Positions 615 through 13,755 of a stretch of DNA of 39,984 nt are shown in pieces; the first letter of the stretch is position 1; each line of letters begins with the position of its first letter. A program made the position numbers and the translations under genes. The notes beneath the pieces were generated by a model. That model did no database searches. It saw only the letters and a list, made by a program, of their open reading frames with translations, and had not been told where the DNA came from. Source of the DNA: Chloroflexota bacterium (GTDB taxonomy: Bacteria; Chloroflexota; Dehalococcoidia; UBA2979); contig VXOS01000114.1 in the NCBI GenBank assembly GCA_009839925.1, positions 1-39,984 of the forward strand, in the 5' to 3' direction.

Positions 615-3600
615 ATGAGCACACGACTGACGGCCCTGCTCGCGGTGATCGTCCTCGCTGTGCTGGCGATCGCCACCTTCGTGGCCGCGCCGGATGAGCC
701 CGAGCCGGACCAGACGCCCTCCCCGAGTGCCGGGACGCCCAGGTCGACTCCAACAGTCACGCCGGCAGCTCGCGAGACGGCGTCCGCAGTCCCGACAGCC
801 ACACCGGTACCTCGCGAGACGGCGCCGGCGAACGTGACAGCCGCGTCGACCCCGCCCGAACCGGCGCCTGGCAGCGTCGCCTCCGACCGCGCCGCCCTCG
901 TCGCCTTCTTCGAGGCGACGTGGGGGGTGAACTGGGGACGGAGTACGAACTGGCTGAGCGACAGTCCGCTTGGCGAGTGGCACGGCGTCAGCACCGATGG
1001 CGATGGCCGTGTCACGAGCCTCCATCTGGACGCGAACGGGTTGAGCGGATCGATCCCAGCCGAGGTGGGACGCCTCGCCAACCTGGAGTCCCTGAACCTC
1101 GGTGCTAACCGGTTGAGTGGTTCGATCCCGGTCGAGCTGGGGCTGCTCACCAACCTGCGATGGTTGTGGCTCCACGAGAATCAGTTGAGCGGTCCGATCC
1201 CTGCGGAGCTGGGTCGCCTCACCAATCTTGAAATGCTGTTCCTCCCGAAGAACGACTTCAGCGGCCCGATCCCAACCGAGCTCGGCGGCCTCACTCGCCT
1301 GAATTGGCTGGTGCTCGACTCCAACGACTTGAGCGGTCCTATCCCGCCCGAGCTCGGCGGCCTCGCCAGCCTTGAACTGCTGGCTCTGTACAGGAACCGA
1401 CTCAACGGTCCGATCCCCGCTGAGCTGGGCCGCCTCACGAGCCTGCGCAACCTGTGGGTGTCGAACAACGGGCTGAGCGGCGAGATCCCGGCCGAGCTGG
1501 CCGACCTCCCGAACCTCGAGTCCATCGACCTTCGGGACAACCGGCTGACCGGGTGCATCCCCGTGGGCTTGCAGCACTTGCTCGAGGATCAGGCCGCCGA
1601 CCTCGACTTGCCGTTCTGTAAGCCAGAGCCCGCCCAGGGCAGCGTAGCCTCCGACCGGGCCGCCCTCGTCGCGTTCTTCGAGGCAACATGGGGGGTGAAC
1701 TGGCGCGACAGCACAAACTGGCTGACCGACCGGCCGCTCGGCGAGTGGGTCGGCGTCAGCACCGACAGCGATGGCCGCGTGACGGGTCTCAGTCTCGAGT
1801 CCAACGGACTCAGCGGGGCTCTGCCGGCGGAGTTGGGCGCCCTTGCCAGGCTCGAGTGGCTGGATCTGGGCTACAACCACTTGAGTGGGCCAATCCCACC
1901 CGCGTTGGGAGATCTCACGAGCCTGGTGCGTTTGGCGCTCGCTTCCAACGAGTTAACCGGCGCGATCCCGCCTCAGCTGGAAATGCCCCCGCACCTGCGC
2001 GAGTTGTACCTCAGCGGCAACCCGCTGAGCGGCTGCATCCCGGTGAGCTTGTGGGAGCTTCCCAATCACGACCTCCACCCCCTCAGACTGCCTTCGTGTG
2101 CGGTAGCAGGTGCGGCATCTTCGATTGACGATCGGGCTGTACTCGTTGCGCTCTACGAGGCGACCAACGGTGCGCGCTGGGCGACTCGCACCAATTGGGT
2201 GACTGACCGGCCTATCGGCGAGTGGTACGGCGTGAGGACCGACGACGAAGGCCGCGTGACGGAGCTGCAACTCCATTCCAACGGGTTGAACGGGCCGATT
2301 CCGGTCGAGCTGAGCCGCCTCGCCAATATCGAACGGCTATGGCTCCACGGGAACCAGTTGAGCGGTCCGATTCCGGCCGAGCTCAGCGGCCTGGCCAACC
2401 TGATCACGCTCTACCTCAGCGACAACGACCTGAGCGGACCGATCCCTCGGGAGTTGGCCCAGCTCAGCAATCTGAAGGAGCTGTTCCTCTACAAGAACCG
2501 GCTGAGCGGGCCAATCCCTCCGGAACTGGGCCGGCTCGGCGACCTGACGTGGCTGTCCCTTGGATCCAACGAGCTGAGCGGGGCCATCCCGCCGGACCTG
2601 GGCCGCCTCGCCAGGCTGGAGCGCCTGTTCCTCAATGACAACGAGTTGAGCGGGCCCATCCCGGCGGCGCTGGGTGACCTCAGGAGCCTGCGGTGGCTGT
2701 CCCTTGAGGCCAACGAGTTGAGCGGGCCCATCCCTCCGGAGCTGGGCCGCCTCGTCAGGCTGGAAACACTGTCGCTCCAGGTCAACCAGTTGAGCGGTCC
2801 GATCCCACCTGAGCTGGGTAGGCTCACCCACCTGTGGTATCTGCGACTCAGGCTCAACTCGTTGGACGGTCCGATCCCGCTCGAACTCAGCAACCTTACC
2901 AACCTGCGGGGGTTGGACCTCGCGGAGAACGAGTTGAGCGCTTCGATCCCCCCGGAGCTGGGCCGCCTCGCCCTACTGGAGGGCCTGTACCTCTTCGACA
3001 ATCGGCTGAGCGGGCCGATCCCGGCGGAGTTGGGGAACCTCGCCAACCTGCGCTGGCTGTACCTCAATGGCAACGGTTTGAGCGGGCCGATCCCGCCGGA
3101 ACTGGGCGGTCTCGCCAACCTGCAAGACCTGCGCCTGTTCGAGAACGAGCTGAACGGGCAGATCCCGGCGGCGCTGGGGAATCTCGCCAACCTGAGGTCC
3201 CTGTATCTCAGCTCGAATGAGCTGAGCGGCAGAATCCCAGGTACGCTCGGGAAGCTCACCAACCTCACGTGGCTCGAACTGGACGGAAACAGGCTCAGCG
3301 GCCCCATTCCCGCTGAGATTGGCAGCCTCACGAGGCTCCGGACACTGAACCTTGAGTTCAATCAACTGAGCGGGCCGATCCCGCCGGAACTCGGCAGACT
3401 CGGCAGCGTCGCGTGGCTCATCCTCCACTCCAACCAGCTGAGCGGACCGATTCCGCCCGAGCTGGGCGGCCTCACGAGCGTGGAGCGGCTGGACCTCTAC
3501 AACAACCAATTGAGCGGATCGGTCCCTGCCGAGCTGGGCGGCCTGCCCAACATCGAGACGCTCTTCATCCGCGACAATCCGTTCACCGGTTGCCTCCCCG

Positions 3601-3662
3601 GGGCCTTGCGCGAAATCCCGTCCACCGACCTCGCACACCTCGGCCTCCCCTACTGCGAGTAG
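615..3662 (+). CDS. Secreted multi-module leucine-rich repeat protein (plant-type 24-aa LRRs, about 31 repeats)
   Basis: 1015 aa; N-terminal hydrophobic segment (LTALLAVIVLAVLAIATFVAA) then a Pro/Thr-rich linker; repeated LxLxxNxLSGPIPxELGxLxxLxx; three LRRNT-like blocks (DRAALVAFFEATWGVNW...GEWxGVSTDxDGRVT). Confidence 0.93.
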   Translation: MSTRLTALLAVIVLAVLAIATFVAAPDEPEPDQTPSPSAGTPRSTPTVTPAARETASAVPTATPVPRETAPANVTAASTPPEPAPGSVASDRAALVAFFEATWGVNWGRSTNWLSDSPLGEWHGVSTDGDGRVTSLHLDANGLSGSIPAEVGRLANLESLNLGANRLSGSIPVELGLLTNLRWLWLHENQLSGPIPAELGRLTNLEMLFLPKNDFSGPIPTELGGLTRLNWLVLDSNDLSGPIPPELGGLASLELLALYRNRLNGPIPAELGRLTSLRNLWVSNNGLSGEIPAELADLPNLESIDLRDNRLTGCIPVGLQHLLEDQAADLDLPFCKPEPAQGSVASDRAALVAFFEATWGVNWRDSTNWLTDRPLGEWVGVSTDSDGRVTGLSLESNGLSGALPAELGALARLEWLDLGYNHLSGPIPPALGDLTSLVRLALASNELTGAIPPQLEMPPHLRELYLSGNPLSGCIPVSLWELPNHDLHPLRLPSCAVAGAASSIDDRAVLVALYEATNGARWATRTNWVTDRPIGEWYGVRTDDEGRVTELQLHSNGLNGPIPVELSRLANIERLWLHGNQLSGPIPAELSGLANLITLYLSDNDLSGPIPRELAQLSNLKELFLYKNRLSGPIPPELGRLGDLTWLSLGSNELSGAIPPDLGRLARLERLFLNDNELSGPIPAALGDLRSLRWLSLEANELSGPIPPELGRLVRLETLSLQVNQLSGPIPPELGRLTHLWYLRLRLNSLDGPIPLELSNLTNLRGLDLAENELSASIPPELGRLALLEGLYLFDNRLSGPIPAELGNLANLRWLYLNGNGLSGPIPPELGGLANLQDLRLFENELNGQIPAALGNLANLRSLYLSSNELSGRIPGTLGKLTNLTWLELDGNRLSGPIPAEIGSLTRLRTLNLEFNQLSGPIPPELGRLGSVAWLILHSNQLSGPIPPELGGLTSVERLDLYNNQLSGSVPAELGGLPNIETLFIRDNPFTGCLPGALREIPSTDLAHLGLPYCE

Positions 3663-8712: not shown

Positions 8713-9024
8713 GTGATGATCATGCGAATCACGTGGGGCAAGGTGCAGCCCGGCAAGTGGGCCGAGTACGCCGAGGCCTACCGCCGGACGATGGAGCCGA
8801 TCAGCAGCGGCATCCAGGGGCTGCGTGGCCGCTGGCTCGCCCACGACCTCGACGAGGAGGACGCCGGCTTCGCGGTCAGCATCTGGGACTCGCGGGAGGA
8901 CCTCGACGCCTACCGCGACTCGGAGCTGTTCGAAGAGCAGGTGCAGGCCCCGCTCGCCGACTACTTCGTCGACGAGTTCCGCACGTACCACTGCGAGGTC
9001 GACGTCGTCGAGGACGTCGGCTAG
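8713..9024 (+). CDS. Antibiotic biosynthesis monooxygenase-like (dimeric alpha/beta barrel) small protein
   Basis: 103 aa MMIMRITWGKVQPGKWAEYAEAYRRTMEPISSGIQGLRGRWLAHDLDEEDAGFAVSIWDSREDLDAYRDS; AAGGGAAGGAG RBS. Confidence 0.7.
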   Translation: MMIMRITWGKVQPGKWAEYAEAYRRTMEPISSGIQGLRGRWLAHDLDEEDAGFAVSIWDSREDLDAYRDSELFEEQVQAPLADYFVDEFRTYHCEVDVVEDVG

Positions 9025-9071
9025 GACACGCCGTCCGAGGTCCACACATCCGAGGCGCCCCGGGTGGCGGG

Positions 9072-9141
9072 GCGCCTCGTCAGTTCCGGCCCCAACACTC
9101 CACGGAGCCGTCGGGGCCCTGGCCGCAGGTGTGCCGCAGAA
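9072..9141 (-). pseudogene. Detached 3'-terminal fragment of an RCC1-repeat gene
   Basis: Minus strand reads ILRHTCGQGPDGSVECWGRN*, paralogous to the end of the 9431-10486 gene (GRWHTCGLRPGGSIECWGLGSDEAQ*); DNA similarity continues past the stop (GCGCCTCGTCA identical on the plus strand in both). Confidence 0.75.
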
Positions 9142-9182
9142 TCAGTTGCACGTCGGGGTGGGATGAGTTCGAGGAAGCAGCG

Positions 9183-9377
9183 ATGGTGAGCATCACCGAA
9201 ATCCAGGAAGCGATTCGGATCCTTCCCGAGCCCGAGTATGCCCGGCTGCGGAAATGGATCAGCGATCTGGACTGGGAACGCTGGGACCAGCAGCTCGAGG
9301 CTGACGCCGAGGCCGGCAGGTTGGACTTCCTGATCGCGGAGGCCCATGAGGCCGGAGAGCGCCTGATCGGCGTTTGA
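9183..9377 (+). CDS. Small antitoxin-like protein (addiction-module type), no toxin adjacent
   Basis: 64 aa MVSITEIQEAIRILPEPEYARLRKWISDLDWERWDQQLEADAEAGRLDFLIAEAHEAGERLIGV; matches the general W(D)xQ(I/L)EADAEAGxLDxLxxEA pattern of small antitoxins; GAGGAAGCAGCG RBS-like upstream. Confidence 0.65.
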   Translation: MVSITEIQEAIRILPEPEYARLRKWISDLDWERWDQQLEADAEAGRLDFLIAEAHEAGERLIGV

Positions 9378-9387
9378 CCCACCCCCA

Positions 9388-9426
9388 CTCGCCCAACCCT
9401 TGCCCCTTACCAACCCGCACGGCGAT
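9388..9426. repeat. Imperfect direct repeat, copy A
   Basis: ctcgcccaacccttgccccttaccaacccgcacggcgat; cf. copy B at 10558-10595. Confidence 0.7.
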
Positions 9427-9430
9427 CTGG

Positions 9431-10486
9431 CTACTGCGCCTCGTCACTTCCGAGCCCCCAGCACTCGATGGAGCCGCCGGGCCTCAGGCCGCAGGTGTGC
9501 CAGCGCCCTGCGCTGATCGAAGTGAAGGCGCCATCGGGCGGCGAGGCTTGGCCCTCGGAGTCCCGGCCCCAACAGACGACGGTGCCATCACTCTTGACCC
9601 CGCAGATGTGCGCAAACCCTGTACTCACAGACATAAAGGGGCCGTCGGCTGTCAAGGACTCCGCCCAAGGCCCGCGGCAAAGAATCGCGCCGCTGAGTGT
9701 GACCCCGCACGAATAGTCATCGCCGGCACTTACGGAGATGAACCAGCCACCAACAGGACGCAGGGTCTCGGCGTCGGACCACTCATGGCCGCTACCGCAA
9801 CCCTCGTCCTTCGAGCAATGGCTGACCCACCGGAACCCTTGGCCCCAGCACTCGACAGAGCCGTCTGCCCGGACGCCACAGGCATGCTCCCAGCCGGCGC
9901 TCACGGAGACAAATGGCTGCGCAGGGGGCGAGGACTGGCCCAGGTAGTCAAAGCCCCAGCACGCGACCGAACCGTCGGCTCGAATAGCACAGCCGTACGA
10001 AGCGCCGACGCTCACAGCGGTGAAGGCGCCATGAGGCGGCGACGACTCGCCTTCGATATCCGCGCCCCAGCACGCGATCGAACCATCCGTCCGGACTCCG
10101 CAGGTGTGCGACACACCTGCGCTCACGGACCCGAAGGAGCCACTGGGTGGCGACGACTTTCCGTACTGGTCGTCGCCCCAGCACTCAACCGCACCATCAG
10201 CCTTGACTCCGCAGCTGTGCGACACACCGACGGTCACCGAAGTGAATGCCCCCTCGGGCGGCGAGGTCAGGCCGGGAATGGTGGGCGGCGGTACAACAAG
10301 TGGTGGGGATGTGGACGTGGGCGGCGGCGCACGCCGTGACGCGGCGGCGGGCTGCGACTCGGCGTCGGGCTCGCCGCCGGTGCAGGCGATGAAGGCGGCT
10401 CCGAGCAGGACCGCGAGCACGGCGAGCGACCACCCGGCCGGGGTGCGCGCAAACAGTCGCAGCCGGAAGTCCGTCATGGCCCTCAC
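9431..10486 (-). CDS. RCC1-repeat (RCC1_2-like) lipoprotein
   Basis: 351 aa; hydrophobic leader ending LLGAAFIAC|T (lipobox-like), Pro/Thr linker, about seven FxSVSAGxxHxCGVxxDGSVxCWG repeats. Confidence 0.9.
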   Translation of the reverse strand: MRAMTDFRLRLFARTPAGWSLAVLAVLLGAAFIACTGGEPDAESQPAAASRRAPPPTSTSPPLVVPPPTIPGLTSPPEGAFTSVTVGVSHSCGVKADGAVECWGDDQYGKSSPPSGSFGSVSAGVSHTCGVRTDGSIACWGADIEGESSPPHGAFTAVSVGASYGCAIRADGSVACWGFDYLGQSSPPAQPFVSVSAGWEHACGVRADGSVECWGQGFRWVSHCSKDEGCGSGHEWSDAETLRPVGGWFISVSAGDDYSCGVTLSGAILCRGPWAESLTADGPFMSVSTGFAHICGVKSDGTVVCWGRDSEGQASPPDGAFTSISAGRWHTCGLRPGGSIECWGLGSDEAQ

Positions 10487-10557
10487 GCATCACCGGGCCT
10501 CGAGACATCGCCGTCAACGAATGGTACGTCTCGTACGTCTGACTGGTTCCCTTTACC

Positions 10558-10595
10558 CTCGCCCAACCCTCGCCGCTACCAACTGACACGGCGAT
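10558..10595. repeat. Imperfect direct repeat, copy B
   Basis: ctcgcccaaccctcgccgctaccaactgacacggcgat; shares ctcgcccaaccct, taccaac and cacggcgat blocks with copy A. Confidence 0.7.
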
Positions 10596-10662
10596 ACTAG
10601 GTGCGGACGGCCGTCGCCCGGCGCGAGCCGGGGATCGAGCGGCCGCGGCGGGAGGAGCGGGG

Positions 10663-11682
10663 ATGAGCGCCAACCCGCACGCGGCGATCGTCGCCGAGGG
10701 CCTCGTCCGCACCTTCCCCGGCGTCCGCGCCGTCGACGGCATCGACCTCTCCATCGAGCGCGGCCAGGTTTTCGGCTTCCTCGGCGCGAACGGCTCCGGC
10801 AAGACCACCACCATCCGCATGCTCACCACGCTGCTGCGGCCCACCGCCGGCCGCGGCTACGTCGACGGCCTCGACGTGCAGCGCGAGGCCTCCGAGGTGC
10901 GGCGGCGCATCGGCGTCGCGCTGCAGGAGGCGGGCCTCGACGACCTCCAGACGGGGCGCGAGCTGCTGACGCTGCAGGGCCGCCTGCAGGGCATGTCCCG
11001 CGCCGCCGTCCGCCCGCGCGTCGACGAGCTGCTGGCCATCGTCGAGCTCGAGGACTCCGCCGACCGCAAGATCGGCACCTACTCCGGCGGAATGCAGCGG
11101 CGGCTCGACCTCGCCTCGGCGCTCGTGCACACGCCGAGCATCGTCTTCCTCGACGAGCCGACGAGCGGGCTCGACCCGATCAGCCGCGAGGCGCTCTGGC
11201 GTTATGTAGAGCGACTCAACCGCGACGACGGCGTCACCTTCTTCCTCACCACCCAGTACCTCGAGGAAGCCGACCGCCTCGCCGACGAGATCGCAATCAT
11301 CGACGCGGGCCTCATCGTCGCCTCCGGCTCGCCTTCGGCGCTCAAGGCGACGATCGGCGCGGACGTGGTCTCGCTGCGCATCGAGGACGGCGACGGCGCC
11401 GGGCAGGCGGTGGAGCGAGCGAGCGAGCGGTTCCGCGCGATGCCCGGGCTGGAGGAGCTGCGGACGACGGAGGACGCGCTGGTGGTCTACATCCGCGAGG
11501 GCAGCCAGGCAATCGCGCCGATCGTGACGATCGCCAACGAGACGGGCCTCTCCGTGCTCGAGGTCACACTCGCGCAACCGACGCTGGACGACGTCTTCCT
11601 GCGCGCGACGGGGCGGCGCCTGGAGGTGGACGCGGACGTGCCGGATCCGGGCGTGCGGGACGCCTCGGAGGCGGTCTCGTGA
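10663..11682 (+). CDS. ABC transporter ATP-binding protein (DrrA-like)
   Basis: Walker A GANGSGKTT, signature YSGGMQRRLDLA, Walker B IVFLDEPTSGLDP, H-loop LTTQYLEEAD region. Confidence 0.96.
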   Translation: MSANPHAAIVAEGLVRTFPGVRAVDGIDLSIERGQVFGFLGANGSGKTTTIRMLTTLLRPTAGRGYVDGLDVQREASEVRRRIGVALQEAGLDDLQTGRELLTLQGRLQGMSRAAVRPRVDELLAIVELEDSADRKIGTYSGGMQRRLDLASALVHTPSIVFLDEPTSGLDPISREALWRYVERLNRDDGVTFFLTTQYLEEADRLADEIAIIDAGLIVASGSPSALKATIGADVVSLRIEDGDGAGQAVERASERFRAMPGLEELRTTEDALVVYIREGSQAIAPIVTIANETGLSVLEVTLAQPTLDDVFLRATGRRLEVDADVPDPGVRDASEAVS

Positions 11683-12443
11683 CGGCGCTCGTCATCGCCT
11701 CCTCCCTGCTTTGCTGGCGCGCGGTGCGCGAGACGCTCCGCCAGCCCGGCGTCGAGGTCAGCAACCTCTTCATCCCGCTGTTCTTCTTCTTCGTCACCGT
11801 CGGCGCGATCAGCAACGTGGCCGGGCCGGCCTTCGGCGTCGACAACTACGAGGGCTTCCAGCTGCCGGTCGCCGTCCTCCAGTGCGTGGCCGGCGCCGCC
11901 TCGATCTCCGGCATCGCGATCGTCAAGGACATCGAGAGCGGCTACTTCGACAAGCTGCTGCTCACGCCCAGCCCGAGGCTGGCGATCGTGCTGGGTCGGC
12001 TCTTCGCGGACGCGATCCGGGCCATCGCGTTCACCGCGGTGATCCTCGTCGTGGTTTCGCCGGTGGGTGCGGGGATGGAGGCGGGGCCGCTCGGCTACCT
12101 CGTGATCCTCGCGCTGGCGGGGCTGTTCGGTGCGGCCTACTCCGGCATCGGCGCGACAATCGCGCTGCGCACGGGCAACGCGCAGGCAGCGCAGGCCGGG
12201 TTCCTGCTGTTCTTCCCGCTGCTCTTCCTCTCGCCGGCGTTCGCGCCCAAGGAGGTCTTCGACCCCTGGATGGAGTTCCTCGCCTCGATCAACCCCGTCA
12301 CCTACCTGCTCGAGGGCATGCGGGCGCTGGTGCTTGAGGGCTGGGAGTGGGACAACCTGGCCGGCGCGGTCGCCGCCGTGCTCGCCCTCGGCGTGGTCAC
12401 CATCGCGCTCTCGCTCTGGTCGCTGCGGGCGCGCACGCGCTGA
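11679..12443 (+). CDS. ABC-2 type transporter permease (DrrB-like)
   Basis: GTGA overlap with the upstream ATPase gene; multiple TM segments, FFFFVTVGAISNVAG and LLFLSPAFAPKEVFDPWMEFLASINPVTYLLEGMRAL. Confidence 0.93.
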   Translation: MTALVIASSLLCWRAVRETLRQPGVEVSNLFIPLFFFFVTVGAISNVAGPAFGVDNYEGFQLPVAVLQCVAGAASISGIAIVKDIESGYFDKLLLTPSPRLAIVLGRLFADAIRAIAFTAVILVVVSPVGAGMEAGPLGYLVILALAGLFGAAYSGIGATIALRTGNAQAAQAGFLLFFPLLFLSPAFAPKEVFDPWMEFLASINPVTYLLEGMRALVLEGWEWDNLAGAVAAVLALGVVTIALSLWSLRARTR

Positions 12444-12457
12444 GGCGCGCCGCAGCG

Positions 12458-12465
12458 TATAGAAT
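12458..12465 (+). promoter_or_regulatory. Putative -10-like element TATAGAAT
   Basis: AT-rich octamer in GC-rich context, about 25-32 nt upstream of ATG 12490. Confidence 0.35.
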
Positions 12466-12489
12466 CAGCCCCGAGGTCAGGAGGACCAC

Positions 12490-13755
12490 ATGGACTGGGA
12501 CGACTCTGCCGAACTCGCGGCCTTCCGCGAACGCATCCGCACCTTCTTCGAGGACAACCTGCCGGACCGCTACAAGCGAGCGGCCGCGGGCGAGTGGATG
12601 CGCCAGATGATCCCCGCTCCCGACGGCGAGCCGATGTACTTCGACGAGCCCAGCTGGGACCACGACCGGCTCTCGACCGACCCGGACGCGCGCGCGGCCT
12701 CGCGCGAGTGGGCCGACGCGCTCGCCGCCGAGGGCCTCGTCGCCCCGGCCTGGGCGAAGGAGCACGGGGGCGCCGGCCTGTCGACGCTGGAGCAGTTCGT
12801 CTTCAACGAGGAGCGCGAGCGCGCCGGCGCGCCGCGCGTCGGGGGGACGGGCGCGATGTTCCTCGGCTCCTTGCTGATGGTCTACGGCAGCGCCGAGCAG
12901 CAGGCGAAGTACATGCCGGCGATCGCCAACGGCGACATCCAGTGGGCCCAGGGCTACTCCGAGCCCGGCGCCGGCTCCGACCTCGGCTCGCTGCAGCTGC
13001 GCGCCCAGCGCGACGGCGACGAGTACGTCCTCAACGGGCAGAAGATCTGGTCCACGCCGCAAACCGCCGACTCGATGTACGCCCTCGTGCGCACGGACCC
13101 GGACGCACCGAAGCACAAGGGCATCTCGTTCCTCATGATCGAGGACTTCCACATCGACGGCATCACGATGCGGCCGATCGAGAACGCGGTCTTCGACCAC
13201 AGCTCGTTTGGCGAGACCTTCTTCGACGACGCGCGCGTGCCCGCCGAGAACCGCATCGGCGAGGAGAACAGCGGCTGGTACGTGGCGATGACGCTGATGG
13301 ACTTCGACCGCGCGTCGATCTCCAACACGGCCGAGGACCGCTCGCTGCTCGGGGACCTGAAGGAGTTCCTCGAGACACCCGAGGGCGCGGCGAAGTCGCG
13401 CCTCGCGGAGTCGGCGACGATCCGCGCGGAGCTGACGGATCGGGCGATCGAGATCGAGGTGGGCTACAACCTCTCGCTGCGGCTCGCCTCGCTGCAGGCG
13501 AAGGGGCTGATCCCGAACTACGAGGCCTCGATCGGGCAGGTCTTCTCGAAGGCGCTGAACCAGCGCATGGCGCGCACCGGCACCGTGATCTTCGGGCTCT
13601 ACTCGAATCTCTGGCCGGGCGACGAGCGCGCGCCGATGACGGGTGAGTTCACGCGCTCCTACGTACGCACGATCCCCTCGACGATCGCGGGCGGCAGCGC
13701 CGAGATCCAGCGCAACGTGATCGCCACCCGCGGCCTGGGGCTGCCCCGAGGCTAG
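12490..13755 (+). CDS. Acyl-CoA dehydrogenase family protein
   Basis: 421 aa; GYSEPGAGSDLGSLQLRAQRDGDEYVLNGQKIW; TIAGGSAEIQRNVIATRGLGLPRG. Confidence 0.95.
   Translation: MDWDDSAELAAFRERIRTFFEDNLPDRYKRAAAGEWMRQMIPAPDGEPMYFDEPSWDHDRLSTDPDARAASREWADALAAEGLVAPAWAKEHGGAGLSTLEQFVFNEERERAGAPRVGGTGAMFLGSLLMVYGSAEQQAKYMPAIANGDIQWAQGYSEPGAGSDLGSLQLRAQRDGDEYVLNGQKIWSTPQTADSMYALVRTDPDAPKHKGISFLMIEDFHIDGITMRPIENAVFDHSSFGETFFDDARVPAENRIGEENSGWYVAMTLMDFDRASISNTAEDRSLLGDLKEFLETPEGAAKSRLAESATIRAELTDRAIEIEVGYNLSLRLASLQAKGLIPNYEASIGQVFSKALNQRMARTGTVIFGLYSNLWPGDERAPMTGEFTRSYVRTIPSTIAGGSAEIQRNVIATRGLGLPRG

Follow-up and report, generated by a model that had tools for sequence, protein, structure and literature searches.

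The imperfect direct repeats that flank an RCC1-repeat lipoprotein gene in the Chloroflexota contig VXOS01000114.1 are probably what remains of a local tandem duplication, in which the RCC1 gene, its leader and the adjoining edge of the upstream region of an ABC transporter gene were copied and the outer copy decayed. Below, the window is the whole stretch of DNA that was analysed (39,984 nucleotides), the repeat next to the ABC transporter gene is called U, and the one adjoining the RCC1 gene at its 3' end is called D.

The repeat pair and the two RCC1 copies

Copies D (9388-9426, + strand) and U (10558-10595, + strand) are identical in 33 of 39 alignment columns with one gap, corresponding to 86.8% (about 87%) when the gap is left out, and the similarity reaches to the left of the repeat core (CTCGCCCAACCC). 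Their local alignment score is 46, whereas 2000 dinucleotide shuffles of positions 9025-9430 reached at most 27 and shuffles of the whole window at most 31. Searching the whole 2.86-Mb genome, we find only two places that match the repeat, with an E value of about 1e-4. D lies 5 bp from the end of the RCC1 gene and U lies 72 bp from its listed start. The first-pass annotation had placed one repeat just beyond the 3' end of this gene and the other 72 bp before its 5' end, and its coordinates, its quoted sequences and both positions agree with our measurements, with a score far above that of the shuffles.

The intact RCC1 gene between the repeats (copy a, 9431-10486, - strand) encodes 351 aa from the listed GTG, the real start being likely an ATG near 10478. 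Its product belongs to the RCC1 repeat proteins, with a match to Pfam RCC1_2 at an E value of 6e-43 (144 bits, for a cut-off of 22) and six RCC1_2 stretches. It is called a lipoprotein because a signal and the Cys motif ..AVLLGAAFIACTGG can be recognised by eye. The best relative of this gene in the family reaches about 58% over part of its length and none is near-identical, and RCC1 genes occupy different genomic places among the relatives. Three loci in relatives (L045, L049, and L051) carry very long RCC1-repeat ORFs, of 1129-1735 codons, in which 15 to 27 CWG-type motifs are found, from which it follows that the repeat number varies widely in the family.

Further out, beyond D, a detached stretch at 9072-9135 (- strand) is identical to positions 9436-9501 of copy a in 56 of 66 columns, or 87.5% without gaps. 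Against the RCC1 gene, this stretch scores 78 in the region of the last repeat and the stop and 36 elsewhere. Since no other part of the gene matches it nearly as well as 9436-9501, we take the stretch for what is left of a second RCC1 copy (copy b), namely its last repeat and its 3' end. The detached 3' fragment noticed in the first pass is thus a real and specific match.

The left edge of the conserved flank is formed by an ABM-domain gene (8713-9024, + strand), which in G037, a genome of the same genus, is followed instead by a cation-ATPase-like gene, as read by eye. Synteny with G037 breaks at 9024-10557, the two flanking blocks lying on different G037 contigs, each beside other genes. 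Between the ABM-domain gene and the remnant of copy b there is a GC-rich hairpin (9051-9079), for which the region 9040-9090 gives -29.7 kcal/mol and a z score of -3.3, and which resembles a terminator but has no T run. The 3' end of copy b is one arm of this hairpin, and copy a has only that one arm, suggesting that one end point of the duplication is located in or near the arm.

The gap left by copy b is filled by a 64-aa antitoxin-like ORF (9183-9377, + strand), which has no match in Pfam or NCBIfam. Homologues of this ORF occur in G035 (70%) and in G060 (57% and 41%), and both homologues in G060 are directly before ParE-like toxin genes, one of which is above the Pfam cut-off and the other below. 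As no toxin gene follows the ORF at 9183-9377, the antitoxin-like ORF is an orphan here. On contig C15 of G060 (locus L063, 4600-5300), we observe by eye that an antitoxin-toxin pair lies between attC-like sequences, with GCCTAAC..GTTAGGC before the pair and GCTAACAAGGCG..CGTTCGGC after it, which suggests that in G060, a member of the same class, this pair forms an integron cassette.

Copy U belongs to the upstream region of an ABC transporter gene

U is located about 70 bp 5' of a gene for a DrrA-type ABC transporter ATPase (10663-11682, + strand), which is divergent from the RCC1 gene and is followed by a permease gene (11679-12443). The core of U, CCTCGCCGCTACCRRC..CRCGGCRATACT (extending to 10598), is kept before the same ABC gene in G037 and in G039, a genome of the same family. 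G037 is colinear with 10557-12877 at 88.8%, U included, with the blastn alignment ending at 10557; beyond U it has a luciferase-like gene and no RCC1 gene. In G039, the U core again precedes the ABC gene; a PIN-domain gene lies beyond it, and no RCC1 gene is adjacent. When a pattern of the U core with up to three mismatches was searched for in the 44 family genomes (the own genome and 43 relatives), matches were found in three only, always before the ABC gene, and the reversed control of the pattern gave no matches in the same 44 genomes. G035 and G036 have an ABC gene that is 77-78% identical, with a drifted upstream region and without RCC1, and an RCC1 gene adjoining the ABC gene was found in none of the four genomes G035, G036, G037, and G039. 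G015, G038, and G043 gave weak matches to the intergenic region, as did G039 in a second place, but these are in unrelated coding DNA and were dropped. U is single copy in G037 and G039, and the D region is absent from all 43 relatives.

Since the U core is found only before the ABC gene, and without RCC1 in G037 and G039, U corresponds to upstream DNA of the ABC gene, and not to a leader of RCC1 or to an attachment site. The first-pass description of the repeat as an RCC1 leader has to be abandoned accordingly, and the proposed check, whether the repeat always abuts RCC1, turned out negative in these same two genomes. Most likely, U is still part of the promoter/operator region of the ABC gene. 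Scans of 9000-10700 for sigma-70 promoters and terminators returned no matches, so that what points to the predicted promoter role of U is its position and its conservation.

A tandem duplication as the probable origin of the repeats

From left to right, the features follow the order b-D-a-U, so both ends of the duplicated unit occur twice, in head-to-tail orientation. U and D (86.8%) and the two RCC1 3' ends (87.5%) are equally diverged, as one event predicts. In addition, U and D share CCAAC and CACGG, where G037 and G039 have CCGAC or CCGGC and CGCGG, and each of the two copies also has private changes. These shared bases, which are few sites within 39 columns, suggest that the copying is younger than the split from G037. 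The first-pass proposal of tandem copies, of which the second lost its body, fits the divergence, the order, the orientation, and the lineage restriction and is right in outline, although the unit that it had defined, a leader repeat plus the RCC1 gene, is not.

We infer the following course of events. In the ancestor, an RCC1-repeat lipoprotein gene would have been located beside the ABC transporter gene, in divergent orientation. The segment running from the 3' end of RCC1 through the leader to about position 10595, in the ABC upstream region, would have been duplicated head to tail, so that D, a further copy of the ABC upstream edge, came to adjoin the inner RCC1 gene at its 3' end. Of the two RCC1 copies, the inner would have remained intact, and the outer would have lost its leader and nearly all of its body, keeping its last repeat and 3' end, with the body replaced by about 250 bp that include the orphan antitoxin-like ORF. 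U and D would have no role as recombination sites, and D would be a non-functional leftover. Inverted repeats are seen at both putative end points, namely the hairpin arm at 9072-9079 and, by eye, TCGCCG..CGGCGA in U, which fits replication-associated template switching.

Neither the state before the duplication (one RCC1 gene adjoining the ABC gene) nor two full copies were found in any relative. No similarity could be detected between the leader beside U and the sequence that adjoins D on its left, so loss or replacement in the outer copy must be assumed. The stretch 9427-9435, nine bases that separate D from the homologous 3' end of RCC1, is either filler or the product of divergence and falls outside the duplication account. 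The arrangement is similar to that of bacterial tandem segmental duplications with decay, which also show a head-to-tail order with one intact and one decayed copy, a junction at which the start of the unit meets its far end, and equal divergence at both ends. It differs from them in the foreign-looking ORF that fills the decayed copy.

Alternative origins of the repeats

The first-pass annotation also considered a mobile cassette, in which the RCC1 gene would be carried between U and D as recombination sites and inserted by a site-specific recombinase or an integron-like system. The scattered genomic places of RCC1 genes in relatives, the break in synteny with G037 at the RCC1 region, and the integron-like attC sequences seen by eye around the antitoxin homologue in G060 are all consistent with such an element, but U sits at the ABC gene without RCC1 in G037 and G039. 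Moreover, we examined ten other RCC1 ORFs in the own genome and in relatives, two of which were excluded for having too little flank, and none of the eight testable ones has flanking direct repeats above shuffles; the U/D sites do not flank any other gene copy in the own genome or the 43 relatives either. Inspection of the window ORFs reveals no recombinase, and the detached RCC1 3' fragment is left unaccounted for. Integron gene cassettes resemble the present layout in having a gene beside a short repeated non-coding element, here with one core-like heptamer, GCCCAAC, in D. Unlike in these cassettes, no integrase is seen and the repeat is tied to the ABC gene; an attC reading of D was rejected since, read by eye, no GTTRRRY occurs within 150 bp of this heptamer to complete the RYYYAAC/GTTRRRY pair. 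Given that there are no other flanking repeats, no recombinase, and no paired attC core in D, the cassette is not supported and we consider it very unlikely.

Homologous recombination at U, by which a circular or transferred DNA bearing RCC1 and a U-like sequence would have left U and D as flanks, would also be expected to produce direct repeats around RCC1, and the RCC1 gene indeed has no near-identical relative in the family. Nevertheless, such an insertion seems unlikely, as it accounts neither for the detached 3' fragment of RCC1 nor for the fact that this fragment is as diverged as U and D are, and no trace of the ABC left flank found in G037 and G039 is observed to the left of D. U and D might instead be independent copies of a shared promoter/operator motif and not duplicates of one locus, considering that the core is conserved before the ABC gene in three genomes and includes the TCGCCG..CGGCGA inverted repeat. 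We regard this as highly improbable, because the motif occurs nowhere else in the own genome or the 43 relatives, the similarity of U and D continues to the left of the core, and derived bases group U and D against the relatives. Furthermore, the + strand ORF that follows D (9374-10339) is only a reverse frame of the RCC1 gene. We give hardly any credence to the idea that RCC1-repeat lipoprotein genes in these Chloroflexota spread between genomic places by an undescribed process in which the edges of neighbouring promoters are captured and direct repeats stay behind.

Genomic setting and significance

Among named records, the ABC gene has its closest matches in Chloroflexi MAGs, SB0661_bin_43 and APA_bin_13 among them, which we presume to be of sponge origin, and the host is probably a sponge-associated Chloroflexota bacterium. 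The window also encodes a large secreted-looking LRR-repeat protein of 1015 aa (615-3662), similar in kind to the eukaryotic-like proteins reported from sponge symbionts. Eukaryotic-like repeat proteins are described as a general feature of sponge symbionts (PMC6306507). As in the sponge-symbiont Chloroflexi, we observe a repeat-protein gene with many relatives in the genus and family, together with the LRR protein in the window; unlike the gene studied here, the proteins named in that paper are ANK, TPR, and LRR proteins, with RCC1 unmentioned. Two papers combine RCC1, sponge, and Chloroflexi, and judged by title and abstract both deal with other topics.

The first-pass remark that the layout matches no described element loses its point, because a decayed tandem duplication accounts for it. 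The feature is real and most likely has an ordinary cause, namely ordinary genome plasticity. Understanding the repeats as a duplication scar would spare the search for a new cassette system and draws attention to an element, conserved in three genomes, that lies upstream of a DrrA-type ABC transporter gene. The locus would provide a small example of repeat-protein gene turnover in Chloroflexota of the kind found in marine sponges.
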